Positions 11,154 to 36,967 of a stretch of DNA of 64,000 nt are shown in pieces. Origin of the DNA: Rhodobacter calidifons (GTDB lineage Bacteria; Pseudomonadota; Alphaproteobacteria; Rhodobacterales; Rhodobacteraceae). Within the stretch, counting starts at the first letter, position 1, and each line of letters opens with the position of its first letter. Made by a program: the position numbers and the translations under genes. The DNA is taken from NCBI RefSeq assembly GCF_011174775.1, contig NZ_JAANHS010000001.1:1-64000 (forward strand), given 5' to 3'. The notes under the pieces are model-generated. The model saw only the letters and a list, made by a program, of their open reading frames with translations, did no database searches and had not been told where the DNA came from.

Positions 11154-11474
11154 TTGGCCGGGCCTTCCGGAAAGCCTGATCCGGCCGCCGCTCTCAGGCT
11201 GCGGCTGGACAAGTGGCTCTGGCAGGCCCGGTTCTTCAAGTCCCGCAGCCTCGCCGCCGAGGCCATCGCCGCCGGCTCTGTCCGGGTGAACGGCACGCGC
11301 GTCACCCGTCCAGGCCGCGACATCGCGGCTGGCGACACCCTCACCTTCCCCCAGGGCGCGCGCATCCGCCTGGTCCGCGTCCTGGCGATCGGCCTGCGGC
11401 GGGGACCGGCGCGCGAGGCGCAGACGCTCTATCTCGACCTCGACCCGGTCAATGCGCCGGACCCGCTTGAATGA
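11154..11474 (+). CDS. S4 RNA-binding domain protein, HslR (Hsp15)-like
   Basis: A 106-residue protein consisting essentially of an S4 domain: LRLDKWLWQARFFKSRSLAAEAIAAGSVRVNG, the standard RNA-binding helix-turn-beta pattern. Hsp15 in E. coli recognises stalled 50S subunits carrying peptidyl-tRNA. The start is TTG placed directly after the helicase TGA, so translation is probably coupled. Its association with a Suv3-like helicase suggests a common RNA-handling function. Confidence 0.9.
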   Translation: MAGPSGKPDPAAALRLRLDKWLWQARFFKSRSLAAEAIAAGSVRVNGTRVTRPGRDIAAGDTLTFPQGARIRLVRVLAIGLRRGPAREAQTLYLDLDPVNAPDPLE

Positions 11475-11526
11475 TCCTGCCACCTGCTCTAGCTAAACGC
11501 CATCGCTTCGCACCAAGGCCACGACC

Positions 11527-11865
11527 ATGACCTACGTCGTCATCGAGAACTGCATCGCCTGCAAATACACCGACTGCGTCGAGGTCTGTCCGGTCGACTG
11601 CTTCTACGAAGGCGAGAACATGCTGGTCATCCACCCGGATGAATGCATCGACTGCGGCGTCTGCGAGCCCGAGTGCCCCGCCGACGCGATCCGTCCCGAT
11701 ACCGAACCGGACATGGAGGAATGGGTCGCCTTCAACCGGAAATATGCCGTCCAGTGGCCGGTGATCGTGACCAAGAAGGACCCGCTGCCCGGCTACGAAG
11801 AACGCGACGGCGAACCCGGCAAGCTTGAAAAATACTTCTCCGAGGCCCCCGGCACCGGCGGCTGA
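11527..11865 (+). CDS. fdxA: 7Fe ferredoxin (FdxA)
   Basis: A 112-residue ferredoxin with [21 protein letters not shown] at the N-terminus (3Fe-4S ligand set) and [16 protein letters not shown] (4Fe-4S set), then the C-terminal extension ([17 protein letters not shown]) typical of FdxA. It is a low-potential electron carrier in the cytoplasm. A hairpin follows the gene. The order helicase, S4 protein, fdxA, carD recurs in related genomes as far as I recall. Confidence 0.95.
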
Positions 11866-11873
11866 ACGCGGGA

Positions 11874-11905
11874 CCGATTCGGGCAGAAGGAAGGCACCGA
11901 ATCGG
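11874..11905 (+). terminator. Hairpin after fdxA
   Basis: CCGATTCGG and CCGAATCGG form a 9-bp stem with a 14-nt loop just behind the fdxA stop. No T-tract follows. Confidence 0.5.
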
Positions 11906-11968
11906 CGGCATCCAGACAAACATTGGAAATTCAAAGCTTTACATCTGAACTGCCCGGTTTCGCGGCAG

Positions 11969-11997
11969 TTGGAATCAGCGCGTTTTTGTGTTATCTT
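11969..11997 (+). promoter_or_regulatory. Candidate housekeeping promoter of carD
   Basis: TTGGAA and TATCTT are separated by exactly 17 bp in the AT-richer stretch ahead of carD. The element resembles the 6S RNA promoter at 52475-52503, which has the same TATCTT -10 and 17-bp spacing. It leaves a long 5' leader of roughly 150 nt. Confidence 0.5.
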
Positions 11998-12152
11998 TTC
12001 TTTACAAAGCAAGCATGGAAGCCTGACATCGGCTTGGAGCAGTCCGCCTGGGCCGAATTCTTTTGTGACAATCGACTCCACACGCCTGAACCAGGGGGTT
12101 CAGCGCGCGGGGTCTTTGTCGCGGAAGGGGCTTCCTTTCTGGGGAACCGTGA

Positions 12153-12662
12153 ATGACCAAGTCGAAGAAGCCTGAATTCCGTCCGAACGATTTCGTGGTC
12201 TATCCCGCGCATGGCGTCGGCAAGATCATCTCGATCGAGGAACAGCAGATCGCCGGAATTCAGCTGGAACTTTTCGTCATCTCCTTCGAGAAGGACAAGA
12301 TGACCCTGCGCGTGCCCACCCACAAGGCGGTGGAAATCGGCATGCGCGCCCTGTCCGCTCCCGACGTGGTGAGCAAGGCGCTGGACACGCTGAAGGGCAA
12401 GGCCAAGGTCAAGCGCGCCATGTGGTCGCGCCGCGCGCAGGAATATGAGCAGAAGATCAACTCCGGCGACCTTCTGTCGATCGCCGAGGTCGTCCGCGAC
12501 CTGCACCGCGCCGACGACCAGCGCGAACAGTCCTATTCCGAACGTCAGCTTTACGAAGCCGCCCTGGAACGCCTGACGCGCGAAGTCGCGGCGGTGTCCG
12601 GCGTGGACGAGGCGGGTGCGGCCAAGCAGGTCGACTCGGTCCTCCTCGGTCGCGCGGCCTGA
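12153..12662 (+). CDS. carD: CarD family transcription factor
   Basis: CarD-family proteins bind RNA polymerase beta and stabilise open complexes, often at rRNA and housekeeping promoters. The 169-residue protein has the N-terminal RNAP-interaction domain (FVVYPAHGVGKIISIEEQQIAG, ELFVISF, MTLRVPTHKA) and a helical DNA-contacting C-terminal part (WSRRAQEYEQKINSGDLLSIAEVVRDL). It is a single gene with its own promoter and a strong terminator. Confidence 0.95.
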   Translation: MTKSKKPEFRPNDFVVYPAHGVGKIISIEEQQIAGIQLELFVISFEKDKMTLRVPTHKAVEIGMRALSAPDVVSKALDTLKGKAKVKRAMWSRRAQEYEQKINSGDLLSIAEVVRDLHRADDQREQSYSERQLYEAALERLTREVAAVSGVDEAGAAKQVDSVLLGRAA

Positions 12663-12678
12663 TCTTCCGGTTCAACGC

Positions 12679-12715
12679 ATGACAAACGGCGGTCCGGCGG
12701 GCCGCCGTTTGTCAT
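12679..12715. terminator. Strong hairpin between carD and convergent gene
   Basis: A 14-bp perfect stem (ATGACAAACGGCGG pairing with CCGCCGTTTGTCAT) with a 9-nt loop. It overlaps the stop codon of the convergent downstream gene and probably serves both directions. Confidence 0.8.
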
Positions 12716-13263
12716 CGTCCGAAATACCGCTCCGCCGGCAGATACCCCGCAAGCCGCCCCGCCGCGCACCACTCGCGCTCCAGCCCCAGGTCGCCCACCA
12801 GGATCACCTGATCCGATGGCACACGCCCCAGGGCCGCCCGCATCCGCTCCCGCATCTCGCCGAACCCCGCCAGCGCATAAGGCGCAGGCCAGACCCCATC
12901 CAGCACCGGATTGGCCGCCTCCACCATTCCCGGAGTCAAGGGCTCCACCGCCAGCGCCAACCGCCCGCACTGCACCTCCGCCAGCTTCTCCGACCGCTCC
13001 GCAGGCATCGCAGGCCGCACCAACGACACCCTCAGGGCATTCGAGGAGAACAGGAACGCCACCACATCATGCCCCGTGGCCGCCCGCACCCCGGCATAGG
13101 TCCGGTAATCCAGCCCCAGCGCCTTGGCCCGCTTGACCCGCGTCCGCACCACTTCCACCGGCAACACCGGCAACAACCGCTCTCGCGCCGCGGACCAGCA
13201 GTGCTTCCGCCAACTGGCCCCGCCCTCCATCGACGGCCCGCCGTTATGCCCGATCTGGCTCAT
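12712..13263 (-). CDS. Conserved hypothetical protein
   Basis: I do not recognise the family. The 183-residue product starts MSQIGHNGGPSMEGGASWRKHCW and has no signal peptide or membrane helix. A basic helical stretch (VEVVRTRVKRAKALGLDYRTYAGVRAATGHDVVAFLFSSNALRV) is followed by a mixed alpha/beta C-terminus. Codon use is like its neighbours, so it is probably a real chromosomal gene. It converges on carD and shares the hairpin at its 3' end. Confidence 0.7.
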   Translation of the reverse strand: MSQIGHNGGPSMEGGASWRKHCWSAARERLLPVLPVEVVRTRVKRAKALGLDYRTYAGVRAATGHDVVAFLFSSNALRVSLVRPAMPAERSEKLAEVQCGRLALAVEPLTPGMVEAANPVLDGVWPAPYALAGFGEMRERMRAALGRVPSDQVILVGDLGLEREWCAAGRLAGYLPAERYFGR

Positions 13264-13293
13264 CCGAAACTCCGAACAATTCGACTAAAATTT

Positions 13294-13319
13294 GCGCTTG
13301 CCCATGTCCCAAATACTCC
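13294..13319 (+). repeat. Dispersed 26-nt repeat (copy 1)
   Basis: GCGCTTGCCCATGTC followed by CCAAATACTCC. The same 26-mer with one substitution (CCC to CAC) recurs in the same orientation at 63871-63896. Both copies are intergenic. Confidence 0.8.
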
Positions 13320-13328
13320 ACAGGGGGT

Positions 13329-13351
13329 CCGGGGGATGTGAAATCCCCCGG
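13329..13351 (-). terminator. Hairpin after riboflavin synthase gene
   Basis: CCGGGGGAT pairs with ATCCCCCGG around a 5-nt loop, about 20 nt beyond the stop codon of the minus-strand riboflavin synthase gene. Confidence 0.6.
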
Positions 13352-13372
13352 GGCCAACCCCAAGCGCAGCCC

Positions 13373-13969
13373 TCAGTCATACTCCCGCAGTCGCGCCACA
13401 TAGCGCGCCATCGTATCGACCTCCAGGTTCACCCGGTCCCCCACGGCCACCTCGCCCCAGGTGGTCACTTCCTGGGTATGCGGGATCAGGTTCACCCCGA
13501 ACTCCGCCCCGTTCACCTCGTTCACCGTCAGCGAGGTTCCGTTCAGCGCCACCGACCCCTTCGGCGCGATGAACTTCGCCAAAGCTTCCGGCGCGCGGAA
13601 GGTCACCCGGACCGAGCCGCCCTCATGGCGCACGCCCACCACCTCGGCCAGCCCGTCGACATGGCCCGAGACGATGTGTCCCCCAAGCTCATCCCCCACC
13701 TTCAGCGCGCGTTCCAGGTTCACCCGCTTGCCGGGCGCCCAGCCGCCGAGGTTGGTCTTCGACACCGTTTCGGCGGAAATCTCGACGTCGAACCAGTTCT
13801 CGGGCCGATCCCCCAGCGCCACCACCGTCAGACAGACCCCGTCGCAGGCGATGGAGGCGCCGATGTCGATCCCGCCGACATCGTAGCGCGTGGCGATCCG
13901 CGCACGCAGGTCGCCGGTGACCCTGGTGTCGATGATCCGCCCCACATCGGTGACAATTCCGGTGAACAT
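13373..13969 (-). CDS. ribE: Riboflavin synthase, alpha subunit
   Basis: The enzyme dismutates two molecules of dimethylribityllumazine to riboflavin plus the pyrimidine, the step after RibH. The 198-residue protein shows the two internally repeated barrels of the family, the first starting MFTGIVTDVGRI and the second at about residue 97 (LGGHIVSGHVDGLAEV). The conserved GVCLTVVAL and GTSLTVNEV pair marks the duplicated substrate sites. It stands apart from ribB-ribH and is divergent from the capsule gene kpsS. Confidence 0.96.
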   Translation of the reverse strand: MFTGIVTDVGRIIDTRVTGDLRARIATRYDVGGIDIGASIACDGVCLTVVALGDRPENWFDVEISAETVSKTNLGGWAPGKRVNLERALKVGDELGGHIVSGHVDGLAEVVGVRHEGGSVRVTFRAPEALAKFIAPKGSVALNGTSLTVNEVNGAEFGVNLIPHTQEVTTWGEVAVGDRVNLEVDTMARYVARLREYD

Positions 13970-24579: not shown

Positions 24580-25698
24580 TTACGCGCCGGTGGGCAGGGC
24601 CCGGCGCATCTCTGCCACAGCCTCATCGATTCTGCCGGGATCCCGAAGCAGGCTGCCGCCCAGCAGATAGACCACATCCTGACCATACATCGCCTGCATG
24701 TCCGCAGCGCGCGCGACGCTCATTCCGCCGCCGGGGCTGGGCAGCATTGCGCGGCCGGGGCCGGAGGGGTCACGGCAGGCCCGGGCGATGGCCCGGCACT
24801 CCTCGGCGCTGAAGCCGAACCGACCGCCCACGTTCGGGAAGACCGAGATATCGGCCCCCGCCAGCCGCTGGATCGTGCCGAAGAGGACGCCGTGGTCGAT
24901 GCCGTTGTCGGGCGCCAGGACGAAGGGGCCGAGAAAGGACGGATGCGTCATCACCGGCAGGTTCAGGCCCGCATCCGTCGCGATGCGATGCACCAGGCCG
25001 AAGCCGAAGAGACCCGGCATGACCAGCACGCCATCGGCCCCCGCATCCCTGAGGAAGCGCAGGTTCCGCTCGATCTCATCGGCCCGGCCCGAGAGATTGG
25101 GGAAATAGAGCGTCCTCTGCCCGGTTTGCGCCCGCACCTTGCGCATCGCCGCGCAAACCGCCTCGACCCGGGCACGGAATGGGGCCGAGGGCTGACCGGC
25201 AAGACCGTGATCCTCCTTGACGATGTCGGCACCGCCGCGCACGCAGCCCTCGGCAAGGCGGGCAAGCTCGGCCGGTGTCAGACCCATGGGCTTCAGCACC
25301 GGGGCGATCATCCCCCCCGTCGCGCGGCCACACAGGGCCCGGATCCCCGCAATGCCGAAACGCGGGCCCGGCAGCCGCGCGGCCATCTCCGGCCCGAGAT
25401 CAATTCCGGTGACGCGGATCCCCTGCTGGATCGAGGAATTGCCGAATACCACGTTCAGGAACTGGGTGAATTCGTCGCCCGCGCTGTCGGGGGAATAGCT
25501 GACGCTCGCCTGCCAGAGATCCTCGCCCAGGCTCCCGATCTCCTCGACCCGGCCGAGGATCTCGTCCGCGACATAGCCGGCGGGCACCACGTTGCGCGGG
25601 ATCTCGACCGTCTGTTCCAGCGCGATACCCTCGGCGCGAGCCTGCGCCTCGGCCCGACTGGCGGCGCGCAGACGGTAGGTGACGGTAAATCGGGACAT
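24580..25698 (-). CDS. RuBisCO-like protein (form IV), non-carboxylating
   Basis: A 372-residue homologue of the RuBisCO large subunit. Against RuBisCO, the motif TIKPKLGLS reads VLKPMGLT (Lys175 kept, Lys177 lost) and GGLDFTKDDEN reads GGADIVKEDHG (Lys201 and Asp203 kept, Glu204 replaced by His). The loop with His327 is VFPNVGGRFG. Phosphate-binding glycines (PSPGGGMS, LLGGSLL) remain. These changes exclude CO2 fixation and fit isomerase or enolisation chemistry on a phosphorylated ketose. Overall it resembles the non-phototroph RLP group that includes OiaX. It is last in the six-gene importer operon; its ATG overlaps the transketolase stop (TGATG). A GTG one codon upstream is possible. Confidence 0.92.
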   Translation of the reverse strand: MSRFTVTYRLRAASRAEAQARAEGIALEQTVEIPRNVVPAGYVADEILGRVEEIGSLGEDLWQASVSYSPDSAGDEFTQFLNVVFGNSSIQQGIRVTGIDLGPEMAARLPGPRFGIAGIRALCGRATGGMIAPVLKPMGLTPAELARLAEGCVRGGADIVKEDHGLAGQPSAPFRARVEAVCAAMRKVRAQTGQRTLYFPNLSGRADEIERNLRFLRDAGADGVLVMPGLFGFGLVHRIATDAGLNLPVMTHPSFLGPFVLAPDNGIDHGVLFGTIQRLAGADISVFPNVGGRFGFSAEECRAIARACRDPSGPGRAMLPSPGGGMSVARAADMQAMYGQDVVYLLGGSLLRDPGRIDEAVAEMRRALPTGA

Positions 25699-26699
25699 CA
25701 CAGCGCCTCGGCCTTGACCGCGGAATGCACCGCCTCGACCCGGACGGCTTCAAGCGCGCCCTCGTCGATCCCGGTGCTCTGGCCTGTCAGCCGCTCGATC
25801 GCGCGGACAAGCGCCAGCGCATCCATGCCATAATGGCGCATGAGATAGGGGCGCGAGCCGCCGTGGGCATAGGTATCCTGAAGCCCAAGGCGGACCAGCC
25901 GCCGGGCGAGGCCCGCCTCGGCCAGGGCCTCGGCCACCATGCTGCCGATCCCGCCGTTGACGAGGTGGTTTTCCAGCGTGACCACGCCATGGCGCACGCT
26001 GGCCGCATGATCCACGATCTGCGCGGCATCGAAGGGCTTCAGCGTGTTCAGATGCAGATGGCGGACCGAAACCCCCGCCCCTGCCAGGGCACTTCGGGCG
26101 CGGATCGCCTCTTCGGTGGTGACGCCGGCGGTGACGACCAGCACATCGTCGCCCTCGGACAGAACCCGCATCTGCCCGATCCGCAGCGGCGTATCGAACA
26201 GTCGCGGCACCGCGCCGCGCAGGATGCGGCAATAGACCGGGCCATCCACGGTATCGGCCTCGGCCACGATGCTTTCGACCTCGGTCGCGTCGCCGGCCTC
26301 GAGCACGGTCATGTTCGGGAGGGTCCGCATCACCGCGATGTCCTCGATCGCCTGATGGGTCATGCCGCCGGGCGTGGTCACGCCGGGCAGGAAGCCCATC
26401 AACCGCACCTTCCGGCGCGGATAGGCGATGGAGGCCACCAGCTGGTCATAGGGACGCCGGTAGAGGAACACGCCGAAGGAATGCAGGAAGGGTCGGAACC
26501 CAGCGAGGCCAAGCCCCCCGGCAAAGGACAGCATGTTCTGTTCGGCCATGCCGAGGCTCAGGAACTGCCCGGGGTGGCGGTCGCGGAAACCGTCGATCTC
26601 GCAGCTCGAGGTCAGGTCGGCCGAGAGACAGAGCACCTCGGGGTGCTGCACGGCATGGGCCTCGAAGGCCGCGGCATAGGGGCGGTTGACCATTTCCAT
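25698..26699 (-). CDS. Transketolase-like protein, C-terminal subunit
   Basis: A 333-residue protein equal to the pyrimidine-binding and C-terminal domains of transketolase. Seen: VLCLSADLTSSCEIDGFRDRHPGQFLSLGMAEQNMLSFAGGLG, where the Glu in AEQN activates ThDP, and the C-terminal Rossmann-like domain (DDVLVVTAGVTTEEAI..., HLHLNTLKPFD, TLENHLVNGGIGSMVAEAL). It needs the N-terminal subunit encoded just upstream, with a TGATG start/stop overlap. Split transketolases of this kind include apulose-4-phosphate transketolase AptB and uncharacterised sugar-operon enzymes. The substrate here is unknown. Confidence 0.93.
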   Translation of the reverse strand: MEMVNRPYAAAFEAHAVQHPEVLCLSADLTSSCEIDGFRDRHPGQFLSLGMAEQNMLSFAGGLGLAGFRPFLHSFGVFLYRRPYDQLVASIAYPRRKVRLMGFLPGVTTPGGMTHQAIEDIAVMRTLPNMTVLEAGDATEVESIVAEADTVDGPVYCRILRGAVPRLFDTPLRIGQMRVLSEGDDVLVVTAGVTTEEAIRARSALAGAGVSVRHLHLNTLKPFDAAQIVDHAASVRHGVVTLENHLVNGGIGSMVAEALAEAGLARRLVRLGLQDTYAHGGSRPYLMRHYGMDALALVRAIERLTGQSTGIDEGALEAVRVEAVHSAVKAEAL

Positions 26700-27628
26700 C
26701 ACTGCGTCTCCAGCGGCACGGGGGCAACGCCCAGTTCGGCCGCGATCTCGGCATTCATCCGGGCGCGTTCCTCTTCCGACTTGAAGCGGACGTAGTGCAG
26801 GCGGGGGAAACGGCTCATCAGGCTTTCCATGCCCTGCGTGGGGCGCGAATGGGCCAGCACGATCAGGGGGCGGCCGGGGTGCGGCGTGGCTGCCGCCGCC
26901 CGCAGCGCCGGAAGGTCGTGGGCGTCGCATTCGGCGACCACAGCGCCGAAATCGCGGAACTTGGTGGCGACGTCGCCCACCGTCATCACATCATCCATGG
27001 CGCCGTCGCATTGCTGGCGGTTGACGTCCATCAGCGCCCAGAGATTGTCGATGCCATGATGGGCGGCGGCCTGCACGGCCTCCCAGGTCTGGCCTTCCTG
27101 CACCTCGCCGTCCGACATGAACACGCAGACGCGGCCCGTATGGCCCAGCCGCCTTCGCCCCCAGGCCAGGCCCGCCGCGGTGGAAAGCCCGATCCCGAGC
27201 GTACCGTTGTGCACCTCCATGCCGGGGCTGTGTTCGGCCCCGATCATCTCGACCGAGGAACCGTCGCGATTGAACATCTCCAGCCCCTCGGGCGCCATGC
27301 GGCCGACCTCGATCAGGCAGGCGTAGGCGACAAGGGCGTAATGGGCGGGGGCGATGAACAGCCGGTCGTGCACCGCGTCGAAGGGGCCGTTGTAGCCCGC
27401 CCCGGTGCGATAGCCGGGATTGGCAGCCGAGGGCACGCCGGCGAAGGGCGGCGGCACCAGGGGCATGGTCGAGGGGCCGAGGTTCAGCGCCTCGTTGTAC
27501 AGGAAGGCAAGCTGTTCCGCCGCGGAACAGGCCTGGCTCAGATAGCCGCCGTTGTTGCGGATCGTGTGTTCGAAGACGCGGGCGCGGATGCCGCGGGCGA
27601 CCTCTTCGGTGGACTTCTCGTTGCGCAA
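26699..27628 (-). CDS. Transketolase-like protein, N-terminal (ThDP-binding) subunit
   Basis: A 309-residue protein carrying the diphosphate-binding half of transketolase. The ThDP/Mg motif is MSDGEVQEGQTWEAVQAAAHHGIDNLWALMDVNRQQ (GDGE...NxQ type). EHSPGMEVHNGTLGIGLSTAAGLAWG precedes it. It has an unusual insert near residues 50-90 (STMPLVPPPFAGVPSAANPGYRTGAGYNGP) not found in housekeeping transketolase. It follows the substrate-binding-protein gene after a hairpin and is coupled to the C-terminal subunit. The two should form one heteromeric enzyme that transfers or releases a two-carbon unit from a ketose phosphate. Confidence 0.93.
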   Translation of the reverse strand: MRNEKSTEEVARGIRARVFEHTIRNNGGYLSQACSAAEQLAFLYNEALNLGPSTMPLVPPPFAGVPSAANPGYRTGAGYNGPFDAVHDRLFIAPAHYALVAYACLIEVGRMAPEGLEMFNRDGSSVEMIGAEHSPGMEVHNGTLGIGLSTAAGLAWGRRRLGHTGRVCVFMSDGEVQEGQTWEAVQAAAHHGIDNLWALMDVNRQQCDGAMDDVMTVGDVATKFRDFGAVVAECDAHDLPALRAAAATPHPGRPLIVLAHSRPTQGMESLMSRFPRLHYVRFKSEEERARMNAEIAAELGVAPVPLETQ

Positions 27629-27652
27629 GGGCTTCTCCGGTCGGCAGGGTCA

Positions 27653-27675
27653 GGGCGGGCCGATGCGGCCCGCCC
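27653..27675 (-). terminator. Intra-operon GC hairpin after the binding-protein gene
   Basis: GGGCGGGCC and GGCCCGCCC form a 9-bp stem with a 5-nt loop between the binding-protein gene and the transketolase genes. There is no T-run. In importer operons such hairpins commonly stabilise the binding-protein message so that this protein exceeds its partners. Confidence 0.55.
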
Positions 27676-27685
27676 CGTTCGGGTC

Positions 27686-28723
27686 TCAGCGCGGCGGCAG
27701 CTTCATCCAGGGCGTCATCGCCACATCGGCATGGGCGAAGGCGGGAAGCTTCGCGCCCAGCTCCTCCATGTTCTTGATGTCCAGCTCGTTCAGCATCGCC
27801 TGGGTGATCAGCGTCGGCGGCACGATGACCTGCGGCCCCGGATCCTCGCCCGCCAGCAGCATGGCCAGCGCGCGGACCGAGACCTCGCCCACCACCGCCG
27901 GGTTCGTGGCGGCCGTCGCCTTCCAGGCCGAGCCGGGCTCGCGCATCAGCTGGATGTCGGCTGTCGAGATGTCGGCCGAATAGATCGAGACCTGGCCGGA
28001 CATGCCGGCTTCGTCCACCGCGATCTTCACGCCCTTGGCGAATTCGTCATAGGGCGCGAACATCACCTGGATGTTCGGATTGGCCGACAGGACCGAACGG
28101 GCCTGGTTGGCCACCGAATTCGCGATCGGGTTGTCCAGCGTGCCGAACATGGCGACCTCGTTGATGCCGGGATTGTCGGCCTTGACCTTCTTCCAGGTCT
28201 CGTCGCGGCGGTCGAGCGGCGCGATGCCCGGAACATAGACGTAACCCGCCACGAAACTGTTGCCGTTGTCGGCCAGCGCCGCCTCCAGAGCCAGCCGCGC
28301 CAGGTCGCGGTCGGACTGTTCGATCTGCGGGATCTTCGGGTTCTCCACATTGACGTCGAAGGCCACGACCTTGATGCCCGCATCCACCGCGCGCTGGGCG
28401 GCCTCCTTCATCGACTCGGTCAGGCCGTGCTGGATGATGATGCCGTCCACGCCCAGCGCGATGGCCTGATCCACCATGTCCGCCTGAAGCGCGGCATCCT
28501 GGCGGCTGTCGAAGACCTGAAGGTTCACGCCCAGCGCGGCGGCCTGCTTCTCCACGCCCGAAAGATACGCCTGGAAGAAGTCGCCGGTGGACAGATAGCG
28601 CACCAGCGCGATGTTCACCTGGCCCGGATTGTCGAAAGGCGCAGGCGCATCCTGGGCAAGGGCGAGCGAGGGCGCAAGCGCCACGCTGGCGGCAAGGGCT
28701 GCGAAAGTCCGTCTGGAGATCAT
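27686..28723 (-). CDS. Sugar ABC transporter, periplasmic substrate-binding protein (RbsB-like)
   Basis: A 345-residue periplasmic binding protein with a Tat-like signal (MISRRTFAALAASVALAPSLALA; twin Arg after Ser). The mature part is a two-lobe ribose-type fold: VNIALVRYLSTGDFFQAYLSGVEKQAAALGVNLQVFDSRQDAALQADMVDQAIALGVDGIII is lobe 1, and DEAGMSGQVSIYSADISTADIQLM lies near the second hinge. The start has a strong GGAGGAAC ribosome site. It should capture the pentose-like substrate of the cluster. The family also includes autoinducer-2 and nucleoside binders, so the ligand is uncertain. Confidence 0.93.
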   Translation of the reverse strand: MISRRTFAALAASVALAPSLALAQDAPAPFDNPGQVNIALVRYLSTGDFFQAYLSGVEKQAAALGVNLQVFDSRQDAALQADMVDQAIALGVDGIIIQHGLTESMKEAAQRAVDAGIKVVAFDVNVENPKIPQIEQSDRDLARLALEAALADNGNSFVAGYVYVPGIAPLDRRDETWKKVKADNPGINEVAMFGTLDNPIANSVANQARSVLSANPNIQVMFAPYDEFAKGVKIAVDEAGMSGQVSIYSADISTADIQLMREPGSAWKATAATNPAVVGEVSVRALAMLLAGEDPGPQVIVPPTLITQAMLNELDIKNMEELGAKLPAFAHADVAMTPWMKLPPR

Positions 28724-28793
28724 CGGTTCCTCCCATTTCTCCGTTGTGTCAGGCACCGGCGGGCGCTTCTTCTGTCGCTGTGCGCCGGCTGTC

Positions 28794-29803
28794 TCATCGG
28801 CGCGCCCGGCCAGAGCGGCCGGACAACGCGAAGGTGAAGACAAGGGCGACGACAAGCACGGCGCCCTTGATGAAATCCTGGGTGTAATAGGGGGCATTCA
28901 GCATGGTCAGGCCCTGAAGCAGGATGCCCACGAACAGCGCGCCCACCGCCGTTCCGAAGGCGTTCGGCTTGGCCGCCCCCAGCACGGCAAAGCCGATCAG
29001 CGCGGCGGCCACCGCATCGAGCAGCAGGTTGTTGCCCGAGGCCACATCGCCCCTGCCCAGCCGGGCCGCCAGCAGGATCCCCCCGAGCGAGGCCATGACG
29101 CCCGAGATCACATAGGCCAGCACGCGATAGCCCGCGACGTTGATGCCTGCCAGCGCCGCCGCCTGCGCGTTCGAGCCGATCGCATACATCACCCGCCCGT
29201 GGCGCGTCAGCTCCAGAAAGACCCAGGTCAGCACCGCGATGACCACCAGAACCACGACCGAAAGCGGCACGAGGTCGGGCAGGATGAAGTCGATCCGGTG
29301 GCGCCCCAGCATCAGGAACTCGGGGGCGAAGGTGCCGGTGGCGGTGCGCCCGTCAGCCAACACCATGCCGGTAGAGATCGAATTGCCCGCGGTGGGAATG
29401 CGCTGAAGCCCGACCAGCAGGAACATCATGCCAAGGGTCGCCAGAAGATCGGGCACGCGCATCTTCACGATCAGGAGGCCGTTGATCAGCCCGACCGCCG
29501 CCCCCATCAGCAGGCACAGGACGACCGCCGTCAGCGCCCCCATCTCCCAGATCACCATCACATAGGCCGACAGCATCATGGCCGATGTCGCGACCGCCCC
29601 GATCGACAGGTCGAAGCCGTCCACCACCAGGGTCGCGGTGACGCCCAGCGCCAGAATGCCGGTGATCGCCACCGATTGCAGGATGAAGACCGCGCTCTGC
29701 GGCGACAGGAACGCGGGTTTCAGCACCGAAAAGACCACGATCATTCCGGCCATCAGCAGAAGAAAGCCGTAGCGGATCGCAAGATCGGTGGGGGACAGGG
29801 ATG

Positions 29804-29807
<4 letters not shown>
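28794..29807 (-). CDS. Sugar ABC transporter permease (RbsC-like)
   Basis: A 337-residue integral membrane protein with about ten hydrophobic segments, of the BPD_transp_2 (ribose/galactose) family. GVTATLVVDGFDLSIGAVATSAMMLSAYV is the characteristic second block (normally DLSVG), and ARLGRGDVASGNNLLLDAVAAALIGFAVLGA contains the conserved loop near the ATPase contact. Its start overlaps the ATPase stop by ATGA. It forms the membrane channel of the importer. Confidence 0.93.
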
Positions 29808-31318
<1,511 letters not shown>

Positions 31319-31361
31319 GCCCTTCCTCGCTCCCGACCGATACGCTACGCCCGGATCATCA

Positions 31362-31383
31362 TTTGTCAATACTATTTGACATA
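31362..31383. promoter_or_regulatory. Operator-like inverted repeat between the importer operon and mtnK
   Basis: TGTCAA-N6-TTGACA, embedded in TTTGTCAATACTATTTGACA. Each arm is also a consensus-like -35 hexamer (TTGACA) for one of the two divergent transcription units, so a bound regulator would block or remodel both. A related sequence, read on the other strand as TTTTGTCAGATACTGTTGTC, lies at 34801-34823 next to the SorC-family regulator gene. That makes this the likely SorC-family binding site of the cluster. Confidence 0.7.
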
Positions 31384-31436
31384 TGATGCAATCTTGGAAA
31401 TTCTGACGGCGGAGGAGCAGCAAGGGAGGATGCGGG

Positions 31437-32702
31437 ATGAGCGCCGAAACCTATGTCGCCTTGACGCCGGCAAGCCTGTCGGCCCGGCTCGGGGACCTGG
31501 CGGTCCTGCGCGAGAGGGTCGGGCCACCAGAGGGCTGGCAGGTGCGCGAGGTGGGCGACGGCAACCTGAACCTCGTGTTCATCGTCACGGGCGCCGCAGG
31601 TCAGGCGGTGGTCAAGCAGGCGCTGCCCTATGTGCGGCTGGTGGGTGAAAGCTGGCCGCTGCCCTTGAAACGGTCGTTCTTCGAATACAACGCGCTGATC
31701 CGGCAGGCGGCGCGCGATCCCGGCTCGGTCCCGGCGGTCTGGCATTTCGACGAGGCGCAAGCGATCGTGGTGATGGAATATCTGACCCCCCATGTGATCC
31801 TGCGCCATGCGCTGATCGAGGGGCGGCGGGTGGCGGGCCTTGGCGAAAGGCTGGGCGAATTCTGCGCACGCACCCTGTTCCGCGGGTCCGACCTCTCGAT
31901 GCCCGCCGCGGCGAAGAAGGCGGATCTGGCGCTGTTTGCGGGCAATGTCGAGCTTTGCGACATCACCGAGAACCTCGTGTTCTCGGACCCCTACTTCGCC
32001 GCGCCGATGAACCGGCACACGCCGGGGCTGGACGGCATCGTGGCGCGGCTGAGGGGGGACCTTTCGCTGAAGGTGGCGGCGCAGCATCTGAAGATGGCCT
32101 TCACCTCGCGCGGCGAGACGCTGCTGCACGGCGACCTGCATACCGGCTCCATCATGGTGACCGACACCGAGACCCGGGTGATCGACCCGGAATTCGCCAC
32201 CTACGGGCCAATGGGTTTCGACGTCGGCATGCTGATCGCCAATTTCCTGATGGCGCATTTCAGCCAGCCGGGGCACGAATCGGCGCCGGGGGACAGGGCA
32301 GAGCATCAGGGCTGGCTCTTGTCGGTGCTCGAGACCCTCTGGCGCAGCTTCGCGGCCGAGTTCGGCCATCTGTGGCGCACCGAACGGCGCGGCATCCTGT
32401 ATCAGGCCAGTCTTTACGAGGATCAGGGCCATGGCCTGGCCTCCGAACAGGCGCTGGCCGATCTGCTGGGCCGGATCTGGACCGACGCGCTCGGCTTCTG
32501 CGGGATCGAGATGCACCGCCGCATCCTGGGCCTTGCGCACAACGCCGATTTCGAGCGCATCGCCGACGAAGGCCGCCGCGCCGCCTGCGAGGCACGCGCC
32601 CTGGCCATGGGGCGGCAGCTGATGCTGGGGGCCTGTGCGATCCGCGGGATCGACGCCGTGACGGCCATGGCGCGGCGGATGGACAAGGAGGATCACCTGT
32701 GA
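31437..32702 (+). CDS. mtnK: S-methyl-5-thioribose kinase family protein (MtnK/DrdK-like)
   Basis: A 421-residue small-molecule kinase with the protein-kinase-like fold. The ATP-side sequence [24 protein letters not shown] contains the conserved Lys pair of MtnK. The catalytic loop reads [16 protein letters not shown] and the metal loop [19 protein letters not shown]; both are MtnK hallmarks. The enzyme phosphorylates C1 of 5-methylthioribose or 5-deoxyribose. It is coupled to mtnA by a GTGA overlap. With the ribose-type importer it would act on an imported free sugar, since no MtnP phosphorylase is in the window. Confidence 0.92.
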
Positions 32703-33799
32703 AGATCGACGGCACGCCCTATCGCACCATCTGGCAGGATGCGGATGGCACGGTGAACATCATCGACCAGCGCTGGCTGCCGCACGAGCTGCGCATCGTG
32801 CCCCTGCGCGACAGGGCCGAATTCGCCACCGCGATCCGCGACATGTGGGTGCGCGGTGCGCCGCTGATCGGGGCGACGGCGGCCTGGGGCATGGCGGTGC
32901 AGATGGCAGATGATCCCTCGGACGCCGCGCTGGACGAAACCTGGGCGGTGCTGCACGAGACGCGCCCCACCGCGATCAACCTGCGTTGGGCCCTGGACGA
33001 GATGCGCCGCCTGCTTGCCCCCCTGCCGCCTGCCGAGCGCGCCCGCGCCGCAGCCCACCGCGCGGCGCAGATCTGCGACGAGGATGTGGAAATCAACCGC
33101 CGCATCGGCCTGCACGGGTTGCAGATCATCCGCGAGATCGCCGCACGCAAGGGCGGCGGCCCGGTGAACATCCTGACCCATTGCAACGCAGGCTGGCTGG
33201 CGACGGTGGACTGGGGCACTGCCACCAGCCCGATCTACCACGCCGATGCCGAGGGCATCCCCGTGCACGTCTTCGTGGACGAAACCCGCCCCCGCAACCA
33301 GGGCGCGCAACTGACGGCCTGGGAGCTGAACAGCCACGGCATCAGCCACGACCTGATCGTGGACAATGCCGGCGGCCATCTGATGCAGCACGGCGAGGTG
33401 GACATGGTGATCGTCGGCACCGACCGCACCACCGCGCGCGGCGATGTCTGCAACAAGATCGGCACCTATCTCAAGGCTCTGGCGGCGCGGGCGAACGGGG
33501 TGCCCTTCTATGTGGCCCTGCCCTCGCCCACCATCGACTGGCGCGTGCGCGACGGGGTGCGGGAAATCCCGATCGAGGAACGCGGCGCGGGTGAAGTGAC
33601 CATGGTCCAAGGCCGCGGCCCGGACGGTCGGATCGTGCATGTCCGGATCTCGCCCGACGGCACCGGCGCGCGCAACCCCGCCTTCGACGTGACGCCGGCC
33701 GAACTGGTGACGGGCCTGCTGACCGAACGCGGCCTGTGCCCCGCGACCGAAGCGGGCCTCGCCGCGATGTTCGGCGACCTGAAGGCGGCTGCCACCTGA
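32699..33799 (+). CDS. mtnA: S-methyl-5-thioribose-1-phosphate isomerase family protein (MtnA/DrdI-like)
   Basis: A 366-residue eIF2B-like isomerase that converts an aldose 1-phosphate to a ketose 1-phosphate. Seen: [37 protein letters not shown] (with the catalytic Cys), [54 protein letters not shown] (with the catalytic Asp). The start is GTG inside the mtnK stop. Its product, a 5-substituted ribulose 1-phosphate, is the plausible substrate of either the RhaD-type aldolase or the RuBisCO-like protein of the same island. Confidence 0.95.
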
Positions 33800-33808
33800 A
33801 GGGGCCGG

Positions 33809-34780
33809 TCAGGGGGCGGCCAGCAGCGCCTCGGCCACCGAGGTGGCGGTGACCAGATGCGTGACATAGCCGCCCCGGATCGCCGCGCGCGTCGCTTCCA
33901 CCTTGTCGAGGCCGGGAGTGACCAGGATGCCCATCTCGAGCCCCACCAGCCGCGGCAGGGGCACGCCGATCATCCGGTCCTCCATGGGGCCGGGCAGCTG
34001 GCGGCCCTCGGCGTCGATGAAGCGGCCGCAGATGACGCCGACCGCCCCGTGGCCGACATACCAGTCCAGATCTGCCGGCGTGGCCAGGCCGCTCAGCACG
34101 ATATGACTTTCGGCTGTGGCGGTGCCGACCGAGAACAGAAGCTTGTTCACCGTTTCCAGCTGGTCGAGCTGCGCCTTCAGGATCGGCTCCTCGCGCAGGT
34201 CCGCCGCCAGCACCGCCCGGCTCAGGATCGCGGGCGCGTGCAGGTTCAGACAGCGCGCCCCCAGACGCTGGGCAAGGCGCGTCGAACAGGCCTCGGCCGT
34301 GAAGCCGTAGGGCGTGGCCATCGAGCCCACCAGTTGCAGCACGGCCAGATCCTCGATCCGCGCCGGCTCGACCATCTCGGCCAGTTCATAGACCGTGCGC
34401 CCCCAGGCCACCCCCAGCCGGTCGCCCGGCGCGATCAGATCGGGCAGCCAGTTCGCCGCGCCCCGCACCACGCGCAGGAACCCTTCCTCGGTCCCCGTCC
34501 CCTCGTCCGGGATCACATAGGATCCCTGGAGCCCGAAGCGGTGGTTCAGCGCCAGCGCAAGCCGATGCGTGGTGAAGGCCGGGGCGGCCAGCGTGATGCG
34601 GATCAACCCCTTCTCGCGCGCTTCCTGAAGGTAGTTCACCACGGTCGCGCGCGAAATGCCCAGCGCGGCGGCGATCTCCTGCTGGTTCTGCCCGTCCTCG
34701 TAATACATCCAGGCGACCTGGATCACGGCATTCTCGCCGCTCACCTGCGCCAGGTTGCGCCGCCGTGTCTGACCGCCCAT
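33809..34780 (-). CDS. SorC/DeoR-family sugar-responsive transcriptional regulator
   Basis: A 323-residue regulator. The N-terminal helix-turn-helix is VAWMYYEDGQNQQEIAAALGISRATVVNYLQEAREKGLI. The rest is the SorC sugar-phosphate-binding domain (GDRLGVAWGRTVYELAEMV, GFTAEACSTRLAQRLGA, VGHGAVGVICGRFIDAEG). SorC proteins respond to phosphorylated sugars. It converges on mtnA (9 bp apart) and is divergent from the aldolase gene, with an operator-like element in the gap. It is the obvious regulator of the whole island. Confidence 0.93.
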   Translation of the reverse strand: MGGQTRRRNLAQVSGENAVIQVAWMYYEDGQNQQEIAAALGISRATVVNYLQEAREKGLIRITLAAPAFTTHRLALALNHRFGLQGSYVIPDEGTGTEEGFLRVVRGAANWLPDLIAPGDRLGVAWGRTVYELAEMVEPARIEDLAVLQLVGSMATPYGFTAEACSTRLAQRLGARCLNLHAPAILSRAVLAADLREEPILKAQLDQLETVNKLLFSVGTATAESHIVLSGLATPADLDWYVGHGAVGVICGRFIDAEGRQLPGPMEDRMIGVPLPRLVGLEMGILVTPGLDKVEATRAAIRGGYVTHLVTATSVAEALLAAP

Positions 34781-34800
34781 CCGCGCCCCTTCATTTGATC

Positions 34801-34830
34801 TTTGACAACAGTATCTGACAAAAGTAGAAA
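34801..34830 (+). promoter_or_regulatory. Promoter with operator-like element ahead of the aldolase/SDR gene
   Basis: TTGACA (from 34802) and TAGAAA (from 34825) are spaced by exactly 17 bp. The spacer and -35 together form TTTGACAACAGTATCTGACA, which on the opposite strand aligns with the operator at 31362-31383 (shared TTTGTCA...ATACT..TTG core). It is placed to control both the aldolase/dehydrogenase gene and the divergent SorC regulator. Confidence 0.65.
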
Positions 34831-34906
34831 TTCCAAGCGCCGGTCGCCTGTTCCGTCTGACAAGACCGACACCGCGCCGACCGTCAAGCCTTAGCAGGAG
34901 ACTCCG

Positions 34907-36967
34907 ATGATCGCCAATCTCTGGACCGACGCCGAGGCTGACGCCTTCCTGTCCGATGCCGGGACCGACCCGCGTGCGCGCGATCTGGCGCTGCGGGTCT
35001 ATACCTCGCGCCTGATCGGCCGCGACCCGGATCTGGTGATGCACGGGGGCGGCAACACCTCGCTCAAGTCCACGGCGGTGGACGTTTTCGGCGAAGAGGT
35101 CGCGGTGCTGCACATCAAGGGCTCCGGCTGGGATCTTGAGACGATCGAGGCACGCGGCCTGCCGGCGGTGCGGCTTCAGCCGCTGATGCAGTTGCGCAGC
35201 CTGCCGGCCCTGTCGGATGAAGCCATGGTCAATGTCCAGCGGCTGAACCTGCTGGACCCCTCCGCCCCGAACCCTTCGGTCGAGACGCTCCTGCACGCCT
35301 GGATCCCGCACAAGGTGGTGGACCACACCCACGCCACGGCCTTTCTGGTGCTGGCCAACCTGCCCGAGGTCGCCGCCGTCACGCGCGAGCTGTTCGGCGA
35401 CCGGCTGACGCTGGTGCCCTATGTCATGCCCGGCTTTGCCCTGGCCAAGGCCGCGGCCGAAGCCTTCGACCGCAACCCCGAAGCCGAGGGCCTTCTGCTT
35501 GTGAACCACGGCCATTTCGCCTGGGGGCCGGACGCCAGGTCCAGCTACGACCGCCTCATCGCCCATACCAACCTGGTCGAGGCCTGGCTGGCCGACCGCC
35601 GCCCTGCCCCGCTGGTCCCGGCCGCCGCCCTGCCTGCCGCCAAGGCCGCGCCCGTCCTGTCGGCCCTGCGCGGGGCGCTGGCCTCGGTCCTGCCCGAGAC
35701 CGCGCCTCTGCCCGTGCTCGACCTGCGCTCGGGCGACGGCGAACGCGCCTTCTGCGCCCGCCCGGACCTGGAGGATCTGGCCACCCGCGGGGTCGCGACC
35801 CCGGATCATGTGATCCGCACCAGGGGCGAGGTCCTGGTGCTGCGGCGCGCAGCGCAGGAACCTGCGGCGATGCGCGCGGCGGTGGCCGCCTGGGCCGACC
35901 GCTATCGCGCCTGGTTCGACACCTACGCTCCACGCGCCGCCGAGCCCAAGACGATGCTGGCCCCGATGCCGGGACTGGTCTGGCTGGAAGGCGCGGGCAT
36001 CCTGGGCGTGGGGGCGACGGCGGCGGCGGCGCGGATCGCGGCGGATATCGGCTGCCAGTCGGCCCGCGTGCGCGCGGATGGCGAGGCAGCGGGCGGGTTC
36101 CGGCCCATCGGGCCGAAGGATCTGTTCGACATGGAATACTGGTCGCTGGAACAGGCCAAGCTGGGCAGCGGCAAGCCCCCTGCCCTTCAGGGCCGGATCG
36201 TGCTGGTCACGGGCGGGGCCGGGGCGATCGGCCTGGCCACGGCCCGCGCCTTTGCCGGGCAGGGGGCCAGCCTGTTCCTGGTGGATCGCCCCGGCGAGGC
36301 GCTGGAGGCCGCGCTGGCCGCGCTTGGCCGCGACCACGCCGGCCACGGCTGCGACATCACCGCACCCGGCGCGGCGGCCGAGGCGGTCGCGGCCTGCGCG
36401 GCGCGCTTCGGGGGCTTGGACATCCTGATCTCCAACGCCGGGGCCGCCGTCACCGGCGACATCGCCACGCTGGACGACCGGGCCCTGCGCGACAGTTTCG
36501 AGCTCAACTTCTTCGCCCATCTGGCCTTTTCCCAGGCCGCCATCGCCCTCTTCCGCGCACAGGCGGCCGGGCGCGGGGCGCGCGGGGCGGAACCGGGGCA
36601 GATCCTGTTCAATGTCTCGAAACAGGCGGTGAACCCCGGTCGCGGTTTCGGCGCCTACGGGCTGCCCAAGGCCACCACCTTCTTCCTGCTGCGCCAGCTT
36701 GCGCTGGAACTGGGCGGCGAGGGGATCCGGGTCAACGGCATCAACGCCGACCGCATCCGCTCGGGCCTCCTGTCGCCCGAGATGATCGCAGCCCGCTCGG
36801 CCGCGCGCGGGGTGGACGAGGCCGCCTATATGTCCGGCAACCTGCTACGCGCCGAGGTCGAGGCGCGCCATGTCGCCGAGGCTTTCGTGATGCTGGCCAG
36901 GGCCGAACGCACCACGGGGCATGTGATGACCGTGGACGGGGGCAACATCGAGGCCGCCCTGCGTTAA
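34907..36967 (+). CDS. Bifunctional class II aldolase / short-chain dehydrogenase (RhaD-SDR type)
   Basis: A 686-residue fusion. About residues 1-400 are a class II (Zn) ketose-1-phosphate aldolase: MHGGGNTSLKS near the start, HAWIPHKVVDHTHATAF with the metal-binding histidines, and VNHGHFAWG. About residues 425-686 are a short-chain dehydrogenase: LVTGGAGAIGLATARAFA cofactor motif, ISNAGAAVTGD, and GAYGLPKATTFF as the YxxxK catalytic pair. The family is known from rhamnulose-1-phosphate cleavage to DHAP plus lactaldehyde. Beside mtnK/mtnA it more likely cleaves 5-deoxy- or 5-methylthioribulose 1-phosphate to DHAP and an aldehyde that the SDR then handles (inference). Confidence 0.9.
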   Translation: MIANLWTDAEADAFLSDAGTDPRARDLALRVYTSRLIGRDPDLVMHGGGNTSLKSTAVDVFGEEVAVLHIKGSGWDLETIEARGLPAVRLQPLMQLRSLPALSDEAMVNVQRLNLLDPSAPNPSVETLLHAWIPHKVVDHTHATAFLVLANLPEVAAVTRELFGDRLTLVPYVMPGFALAKAAAEAFDRNPEAEGLLLVNHGHFAWGPDARSSYDRLIAHTNLVEAWLADRRPAPLVPAAALPAAKAAPVLSALRGALASVLPETAPLPVLDLRSGDGERAFCARPDLEDLATRGVATPDHVIRTRGEVLVLRRAAQEPAAMRAAVAAWADRYRAWFDTYAPRAAEPKTMLAPMPGLVWLEGAGILGVGATAAAARIAADIGCQSARVRADGEAAGGFRPIGPKDLFDMEYWSLEQAKLGSGKPPALQGRIVLVTGGAGAIGLATARAFAGQGASLFLVDRPGEALEAALAALGRDHAGHGCDITAPGAAAEAVAACAARFGGLDILISNAGAAVTGDIATLDDRALRDSFELNFFAHLAFSQAAIALFRAQAAGRGARGAEPGQILFNVSKQAVNPGRGFGAYGLPKATTFFLLRQLALELGGEGIRVNGINADRIRSGLLSPEMIAARSAARGVDEAAYMSGNLLRAEVEARHVAEAFVMLARAERTTGHVMTVDGGNIEAALR

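Follow-up and report, generated by a model that had tools for sequence, protein, structure and literature searches.

The window analysed here, a 64,000-nucleotide stretch of the Rhodobacter calidifons genome (RefSeq assembly GCF_011174775.1, contig NZ_JAANHS010000001.1, positions 1 to 64,000), contains at 24580-36967 a gene cluster that probably imports and degrades 5-methylthioribose (MTR), and 5-deoxyribose also. In the reading that we favour and consider probable, an aldolase branch of this pathway is accompanied by a second branch, in which a RuBisCO-like protein (RLP) would hand its product to a split transketolase, TkA/TkB (TkAB). The reactions of RLP and TkAB and the substrate of the aldolase are predicted from sequence. 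The list of open reading frames (ORFs), together with Pfam and NCBIfam hidden Markov models (HMMs), bears out all ten gene families that a first-pass annotation had named here:

24580-25701, minus strand: RLP (PF00016, 68 bits, cut-off 30.1); proposed 5-(methylthio)ribulose-1-phosphate 1,3-isomerase
25698-26699, minus strand: TkB, C-terminal half of the split transketolase, with pyrimidine and C domains (PF02779 and PF02780); nearest PDB sequence 6yaj
26699-27628, minus strand: TkA, N-terminal, thiamine diphosphate (ThDP)-binding half of the split transketolase (PF00456); nearest PDB sequence 6yak
27686-28723, minus strand: periplasmic binding protein, predicted MTR type; nearest solved structure 4ry8
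28794-29807, minus strand: ABC permease, sugar type (PF02653)
29804-31318, minus strand: ABC ATPase, double domain (PF00005, two stretches)
31363-31381, plus strand: operator-like palindrome TTGTCAATACTATTTGACA in the ATPase/MtnK divergent promoter (motif scan)
31437-32702, plus strand: MtnK, 5-methylthioribose/5-deoxyribose kinase family (TIGR01767, 477 bits, above the cut-off of 275)
32699-33799, plus strand: MtnA, 5-methylthioribose-1-phosphate isomerase family (TIGR00512, 419 bits, above the cut-off of 279)
33809-34780, minus strand: SorC/DeoR-type regulator with sugar-binding domain (PF04198, 179 bits)
34802-34820, plus strand: second operator-like palindrome, TTGACAACAGTATCTGACA, in the regulator/aldolase divergent promoter (motif scan)
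34907-36967, plus strand: fusion of a class II aldolase with a short-chain dehydrogenase (SDR), the DHAP-shunt branch (PF00596 and PF00106, adh_short; PRK08324-type models)

A divergent promoter of 118 bases serves the importer operon (ATPase, permease, binding protein, TkA, TkB and RLP), which reads leftward, and mtnK-mtnA, which reads rightward. A second divergent promoter, of 126 bases, separates the regulator from the aldolase-SDR gene, the product of which scores 922 bits (cut-off 931) and 830 bits (cut-off 639) with PRK08324-type models. The nearest named relatives are Tabrizicola species, with 95% RLP identity. Relatives were compared at 62 RLP loci of a named collection, gathered by RLP itself, 37 of them with full flanks. 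The identical ten-gene order recurs at 18 of the 62 (L002-L007, L010-L013, L015-L018, L022, L031, L039, L060; RLP identity 54-95%; aldolase gene cut at the stretch end there), which argues that the arrangement is not due to chance.

In the proposed pathway, the importer, MtnK and MtnA would take up MTR and convert it via MTR-1-phosphate to 5-(methylthio)ribulose-1-phosphate. Along the first branch, the dihydroxyacetone phosphate (DHAP) shunt, the aldolase domain would cleave this product to DHAP and 2-(methylthio)acetaldehyde, and the SDR domain would handle the aldehyde. Along the second, RLP would shift the carbonyl to give 1-(methylthio)xylulose-5-phosphate, the intermediate of the 5'-methylthioadenosine (MTA)-isoprenoid shunt. 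TkAB would then take the place of the cupin of that shunt, cleaving C2-C3 with ThDP to yield glyceraldehyde-3-phosphate and a cofactor-bound methylthio-C2 unit. This unit would either be protonated to 2-(methylthio)acetaldehyde or expel methanethiol, leaving an acetyl unit. The aldolase branch would already give the aldehyde in most such genomes, which is a weak argument for expulsion. Other thiamine enzymes carry out comparable expulsions, of water in the case of phosphoketolase and of sulfite in that of sulfoacetaldehyde acetyltransferase. That TkAB represents a new kind of thiamine enzyme, whose bound enamine expels methanethiol with release of acetate or acetyl phosphate, is a tentative proposal that we hold to be rather doubtful.

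Several lines of evidence place RLP and TkAB after MtnA. In a tree of 52 RLPs and RuBisCOs, including 24 of the available RLPs of the order, two from the class and 15 rows of the cupin group, the TkAB-linked RLPs join the cupin-linked RLPs with support of 100/99 (L062 was entered as TkAB-linked although its stretch shows no TkAB). MtnW lies next to this joint clade, its two sequences outside, and the OiaX-like and RuBisCO sequences stand apart. The cupin-linked group is itself a clade (100/99), outside which the window-type RLPs lie. It includes 3qfw, a Rhodopseudomonas palustris RLP distinct from the entry titled rlp2, which we infer to be RLP1. The rlp1 and cupin genes of R. palustris are numbered consecutively (RPA2169, RPA2170), and RLP1 was shown to form 1-(methylthio)xylulose-5-phosphate, which is then consumed by the cupin (PMC5893883). 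One RLP that groups with those of Alphaproteobacteria comes from a record titled Enemella evansiae (Actinomycetota; L057), by transfer or contamination.

The cupin and TkAB are mutually exclusive, as expected if both act on the RLP product. A cupin is found in 13 of the 14 genomes with a cupin-type RLP, the single miss (G614) being a contig that ends right after RLP; no cupin match was obtained in any of the 27 genomes with RLP and TkAB (the host G000 and 26 others). Of these small proteins, seven were checked, and each proved to be a Cupin_2.

Five nucleoside-type clusters (L034, L042, L045, L055, L057) combine a purine nucleoside phosphorylase, a deaminase-like protein, MtnA, TkA, TkB and RLP; a tblastn search at the locus found no class II aldolase within 21 kb. 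The first two proteins were named by scanning the L042 copies with HMMs: the phosphorylase scores over its cut-off, and the deaminase stays under the cut-offs of its top models, 5'-deoxyadenosine and MTA deaminases among them. Within these gene sets, no candidates other than RLP and TkAB are seen for using the MtnA product. A genome from another family of the class (G589) encodes MtnA and TkA as one 656-residue frame (L109:7149-9119), whose MtnA part is 52% identical to the L042 MtnA and whose TkA part is 50% identical to that of the window; TkB, RLP, a purine nucleoside phosphorylase and a CNT-type nucleoside transporter adjoin it. As a separate observation, L042 carries a 780-residue AceE-like thiamine enzyme directly after RLP, besides TkAB (11153-13495; 155 bits with the aceE model against a cut-off of 860), and L037 has a member of the same protein cluster.

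Each of the two divergent promoters contains a 19-base palindrome, TTGWCAAYASTATYTGACA, which is absent from the rest of the window at up to three mismatches, as well as from 20 mononucleotide shuffles. The operator motif was built from these two window sites, which match by construction, and the relatives are the evidence. Among 83 loci scanned, many of them near relatives and many without this promoter, the first site is matched (at most three mismatches) between ATPase and MtnK in 27; the second is matched at the same place in nine near relatives (L002-L007, L010-L012). Counting scores of at least 13 with a shuffle p of at most 0.02, 13 of 23 loci have an operator-like site 27-83 bases upstream of TkA, mostly where TkA-TkB-RLP form their own operon, which assigns RLP, TkAB and the MTR genes to one regulon, at least in those lineages. 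Six of the 23 (L019, L020, L025, L026, L029 and L041) had also served as training loci; L027/L086 and L041/L088 have the same best site within each pair and appear to be the same genomes twice. No operator site was found upstream of TkA in the nucleoside-type clusters.

We conclude that RLP and TkAB likely follow MtnA. Phylogeny, cupin exclusion, the fusion, the nucleoside-type clusters and the operator make RLP 1,3-isomerization followed by transketolase cleavage, a second route that the first-pass annotation had offered speculatively, the best-supported interpretation of the pair; the apiose pathway that it had put forward as the main alternative did not hold up (see below).

The split transketolase retains the ThDP/Mg motif SDGE...DVN in TkA and a Glu in the MAEQNM motif of TkB, as aligned with 6yak/6yaj; we take these residues to serve cofactor binding and catalysis, respectively. 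The two halves score 117 and 193 bits with the full-length transketolase model NF004559 (cut-off 488), which split chains cannot be expected to reach. The columns that we take to be His26, His100, His461 and Asp469 of Escherichia coli transketolase hold Tyr, Ile, Leu and Gly. The donor His100 is not present, its column being Ile129, invariant across the 23 TkA sequences of alignment A3. His100 binds the donor, is Phe in 1-deoxyxylulose-5-phosphate (DXP) synthase, and its change to Phe or Leu raises activity with pyruvate (PMC7661550). Donors that lack a hydroxyl at C1, among them 1-(methylthio)- and 1-deoxy-xylulose-5-phosphate, would fit this site, which is consistent with the pathway but not decisive.

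The assignment of the substrate class, a methylthioribose-type sugar, is well supported. Among solved structures, the binding protein is closest to 4ry8, titled an MTR binder and not a ribose binder; the first-pass annotation had raised the prospect of an unrelated ligand, such as ribose only. The gene set of the DHAP shunt (MtnK, MtnA and class II aldolase) lies together at 31437-36967, with MtnK and MtnA above their cut-offs, in support of the earlier view of this core as a shunt for MTR or 5-deoxyribose. The host genome encodes MtnP and O-acetylhomoserine (OAH) sulfhydrylase, both above model cut-offs, and its best MtnN match reaches only 27 bits (cut-off 73.8). OAH sulfhydrylase is named as a methanethiol user (PMC5893883). 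Apart from the full MtnP on contig C56, a second, weaker MTA-phosphorylase-like match is seen at G000:C33:200992-201600 (99 bits, under the cut-off).

That 5-deoxyribose is the main substrate is the leading rival, if an unlikely one. RLP would then form DXP, and TkAB would split surplus DXP to glyceraldehyde-3-phosphate and an acetaldehyde-level unit, or the DXP would go to isoprenoids. E. coli MtnK, MtnA and Ald2 are described as active both on MTR and on 5-deoxyribose compounds (PMC12632272), and the hydrophobic residue in the His100 column suits a CH3 group too. The MTR title of the nearest solved binding protein speaks against this rival, as do BisC-type S/N-oxide reductases, which are found near TkAB at 4 of the 62 RLP loci and at all five loci with TkAB but without RLP. 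Their adjacency to TkAB points to a methylthio or methylsulfinyl substrate rather than 5-deoxyribose in those lineages, while leaving room for the latter.

The distribution of the genes was surveyed in one draw of 390 genomes from the order, in which RLP, TkB (TkB only, not TkA) and MtnK were sought. The RLP clade occurs in 25 genomes (562-662 bits; the best score of any other RLP is 137 bits), the TkB clade in 30 (above 666 bits; one more genome has a distant 313-bit relative) and MtnK in 37. All genomes with any of these belong to the window's own taxonomic family, and the Fisher tests ignore kinship. TkB directly adjoins RLP in all 25 RLP genomes, and MtnK lies within ~8 kb in 22, against 2.4 expected anywhere under independence (25 x 37 / 390). 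In the named collection, presence was taken as a tblastn match at E 1e-10 above self-set identity limits, by which a diverged aldolase could be missed, and L043, L059, L066, L077, L078 and L081 were judged by tblastn rather than ORF calls. TkA or TkB is present at 60 of the 62 RLP loci. The 37 full-flank loci contain MtnA in 34, MtnK in 28, the aldolase-SDR fusion in 20 and a short aldolase-type gene in 8; the first-pass annotation had asked whether such pairs occur mainly without mtnK/mtnA, and these counts show them mainly in their company.

An idea that several RLP-TkAB clusters have no aldolase was rejected for L040, L049, L051, L054, L061 and L063, where a short class II aldolase-type gene lies beyond the regulator. 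In L054 and L063 this gene runs off the end of the stretch, and the HMM check covered the L049 copy alone. In L035, L036 and L043 the stretch stops near the regulator. The first-pass annotation had also called the island inserted, a view for which composition gives no support: GC content is 0.691 in the island, 0.686 in the left flank and 0.672 in the right, and without contrast it was rejected as a sign of insertion. The patchy occurrence (25 of 390 genomes) is compatible with transfer or loss.

A number of findings weigh against the branch through RLP and TkAB. The importer, MtnK and MtnA are kept in 14 of the 15 MtnK genomes without RLP (L073 has MtnK alone) and so work without RLP and TkAB; a short class II aldolase-type gene is seen in eight of these 14, aldolase-SDR in two and neither in four. 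This suggests that importer-MtnK-MtnA is one module, to which the aldolase and RLP-TkAB can be added as two downstream modules. Three of the 25 RLP genomes have no MtnK match (G020, G023, G300): in G300 (L086), MtnA and aldolase-SDR still stand beside the RLP-TkA-TkB trio, and in G020 and G023 (L084, L085) no other cluster gene was found in 20 kb beyond the trio. By tblastn, MtnA was not found at three of the 37 full-flank loci (L046, L047, L062), nor TkAB in the stretches examined at L056 and L062. An aldolase-type gene is present at 28 of the 37, so RLP and TkAB could serve something other than the MtnA product. The site upstream of TkA scores below 13 in 10 of the 23 loci (L029, L034, L041, L042, L045, L055, L057, L085, L088, L090). 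RLP is only ~40% identical to the characterized type, the monophyly of TkAB-linked RLPs has modest support (94/69), and MtnW structures match the RLP model as well as 3qfw does, an undiscriminating result for which the fold was rejected as arbiter between the two. His100 is also missing from four other split transketolases with different neighbours, so its loss was rejected as a unique signature of TkAB.

Some of these loci show further features. In L056, RLP lies 0.5 kb after the binding-protein gene with no TkA or TkB between, a possible transketolase loss. L046, L047 and L052 all carry RLP and TkAB with a BisC-family reductase; in L046 and L047 an epimerase/aldolase-type gene occurs together with one for a PfkB kinase, the stretch of L052 breaks off within TkA, and L046 and L052 have in common a protein that by eye resembles homocysteine S-methyltransferase. 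The aldolase-type genes of L046 and L047 are ribulose-5-phosphate 4-epimerase-like, as judged from the 80% identical L083 protein, and the substrate of these three loci may be a different sulfur sugar. TkB without RLP occurs in five of the 390 genomes (L079-L083). At one of them, L083, TkAB is found with a XylB-like kinase, a Zn-alcohol dehydrogenase and a ribulose-5-phosphate-4-epimerase-like protein, all below cut-offs, a gene set that could also supply a xylulose-5-phosphate-type ketose to TkAB.

Such loci lend themselves to a quite unlikely explanation, in which the DHAP shunt alone handles the imported sugar, and RLP and TkAB form a guest operon for another phosphorylated sugar under the common regulator. 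It draws on the pairing of RLP and TkAB with another kinase and importer in L046 and L047, on the lone trios of L084 and L085 and on the five TkAB genomes without RLP. It does not sit well with MtnA at 34 of the 37 full-flank loci, the MtnA-TkA fusion, the five nucleoside clusters in which no aldolase was found or the operator common to 13 of 23 loci.

It is very improbable that RLP is a 2,3-diketo enolase like MtnW instead of a 1,3-isomerase. Its top NCBIfam scores are to MtnW-type models, in keeping with the fold match, but at 178 and 128 bits (the latter 127.5 with TIGR03332) they fall far under the cut-offs of 409 and 513.6, and both MtnW sequences lie outside the joint clade. Among the best 25 of 203 matching models, the class II aldolase scores best with aldolase/SDR models, and no gene is named for MtnB, the dehydratase needed to form the diketone. 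RLP likewise fails the RuBisCO form III model TIGR03326 (89.8 bits, cut-off 497) and the OiaX model NF042437 (87 bits, cut-off 700), and by model scores it is neither OiaX nor MtnW. Catabolism of apiose or apionate is scarcely credible: AptA/AptB is a split transketolase and OiaX an RLP, but the model scores led us to reject this reading, eight other RLPs from genomes of the same family (393-461 bits) also staying below the OiaX cut-off, and MtnK, MtnA and an MTR-type binding protein do not fit it.

Compared with known systems, our favoured pathway resembles the MTA-isoprenoid shunt of Rhodospirillum rubrum and R. palustris (MtnP, MtnA, the DeepYkr RLP1 and a cupin), in which the MtnA product is isomerized by an RLP of the neighbouring clade, with 1-(methylthio)xylulose-5-phosphate as the intermediate also proposed here. 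In contrast to that shunt, a split transketolase replaces the cupin (found in 0 of 27 genomes), and the substrate would be imported and phosphorylated by MtnK. With the DHAP shunt (mtnK-mtnA-ald2 under the repressor MtnR in E. coli; MtnP-MtnA-Ald2 in R. palustris) the cluster has MtnK, MtnA, a class II aldolase and a regulator gene in common, and adds a dedicated ABC importer, the aldolase-SDR fusion, RLP and TkAB. The OiaX/AptAB apiose-apionate pathways use the same RLP and split transketolase families, but the window RLP is far below the OiaX model and the partners differ. The enzymes of 5-deoxyribose salvage are known as DrdK, DrdI and DrdA. That salvage follows the same kinase-isomerase-aldolase logic (PMC6079011), whereas the kinase here passes the MtnK model, and RLP and transketolase are added. 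The split-gene transketolase of Carboxydothermus (6yak/6yaj) has the same two-chain organization and ThDP-binding motif (PMC7661550), and TkAB departs from it at the four altered columns named above. The open-licence PMC literature yielded no published pathway pairing an RLP with a transketolase for methylthioribose, which may exist elsewhere, and no paper on such a pair with apiose.

We regard the cluster as a variant of methionine-salvage/DHAP-shunt systems in which a new thiamine-enzyme reaction is a real possibility. It offers a directly testable function for a so far unassigned RLP clade and for a divergent split transketolase; the RLP and TkB clades occur in ~6-8% of the order's sampled genomes (25 and 30 of 390). 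If the favoured pathway is correct, these bacteria have a branch of methionine salvage in which a thiamine enzyme does the cupin's job. Should the bound C2 unit expel methanethiol, a methylthio sugar would be converted to methanethiol by one more route that needs no oxygen, with the five sugar carbons kept as C3 and C2 units, and a volatile sulfur gas would have a further biological source.

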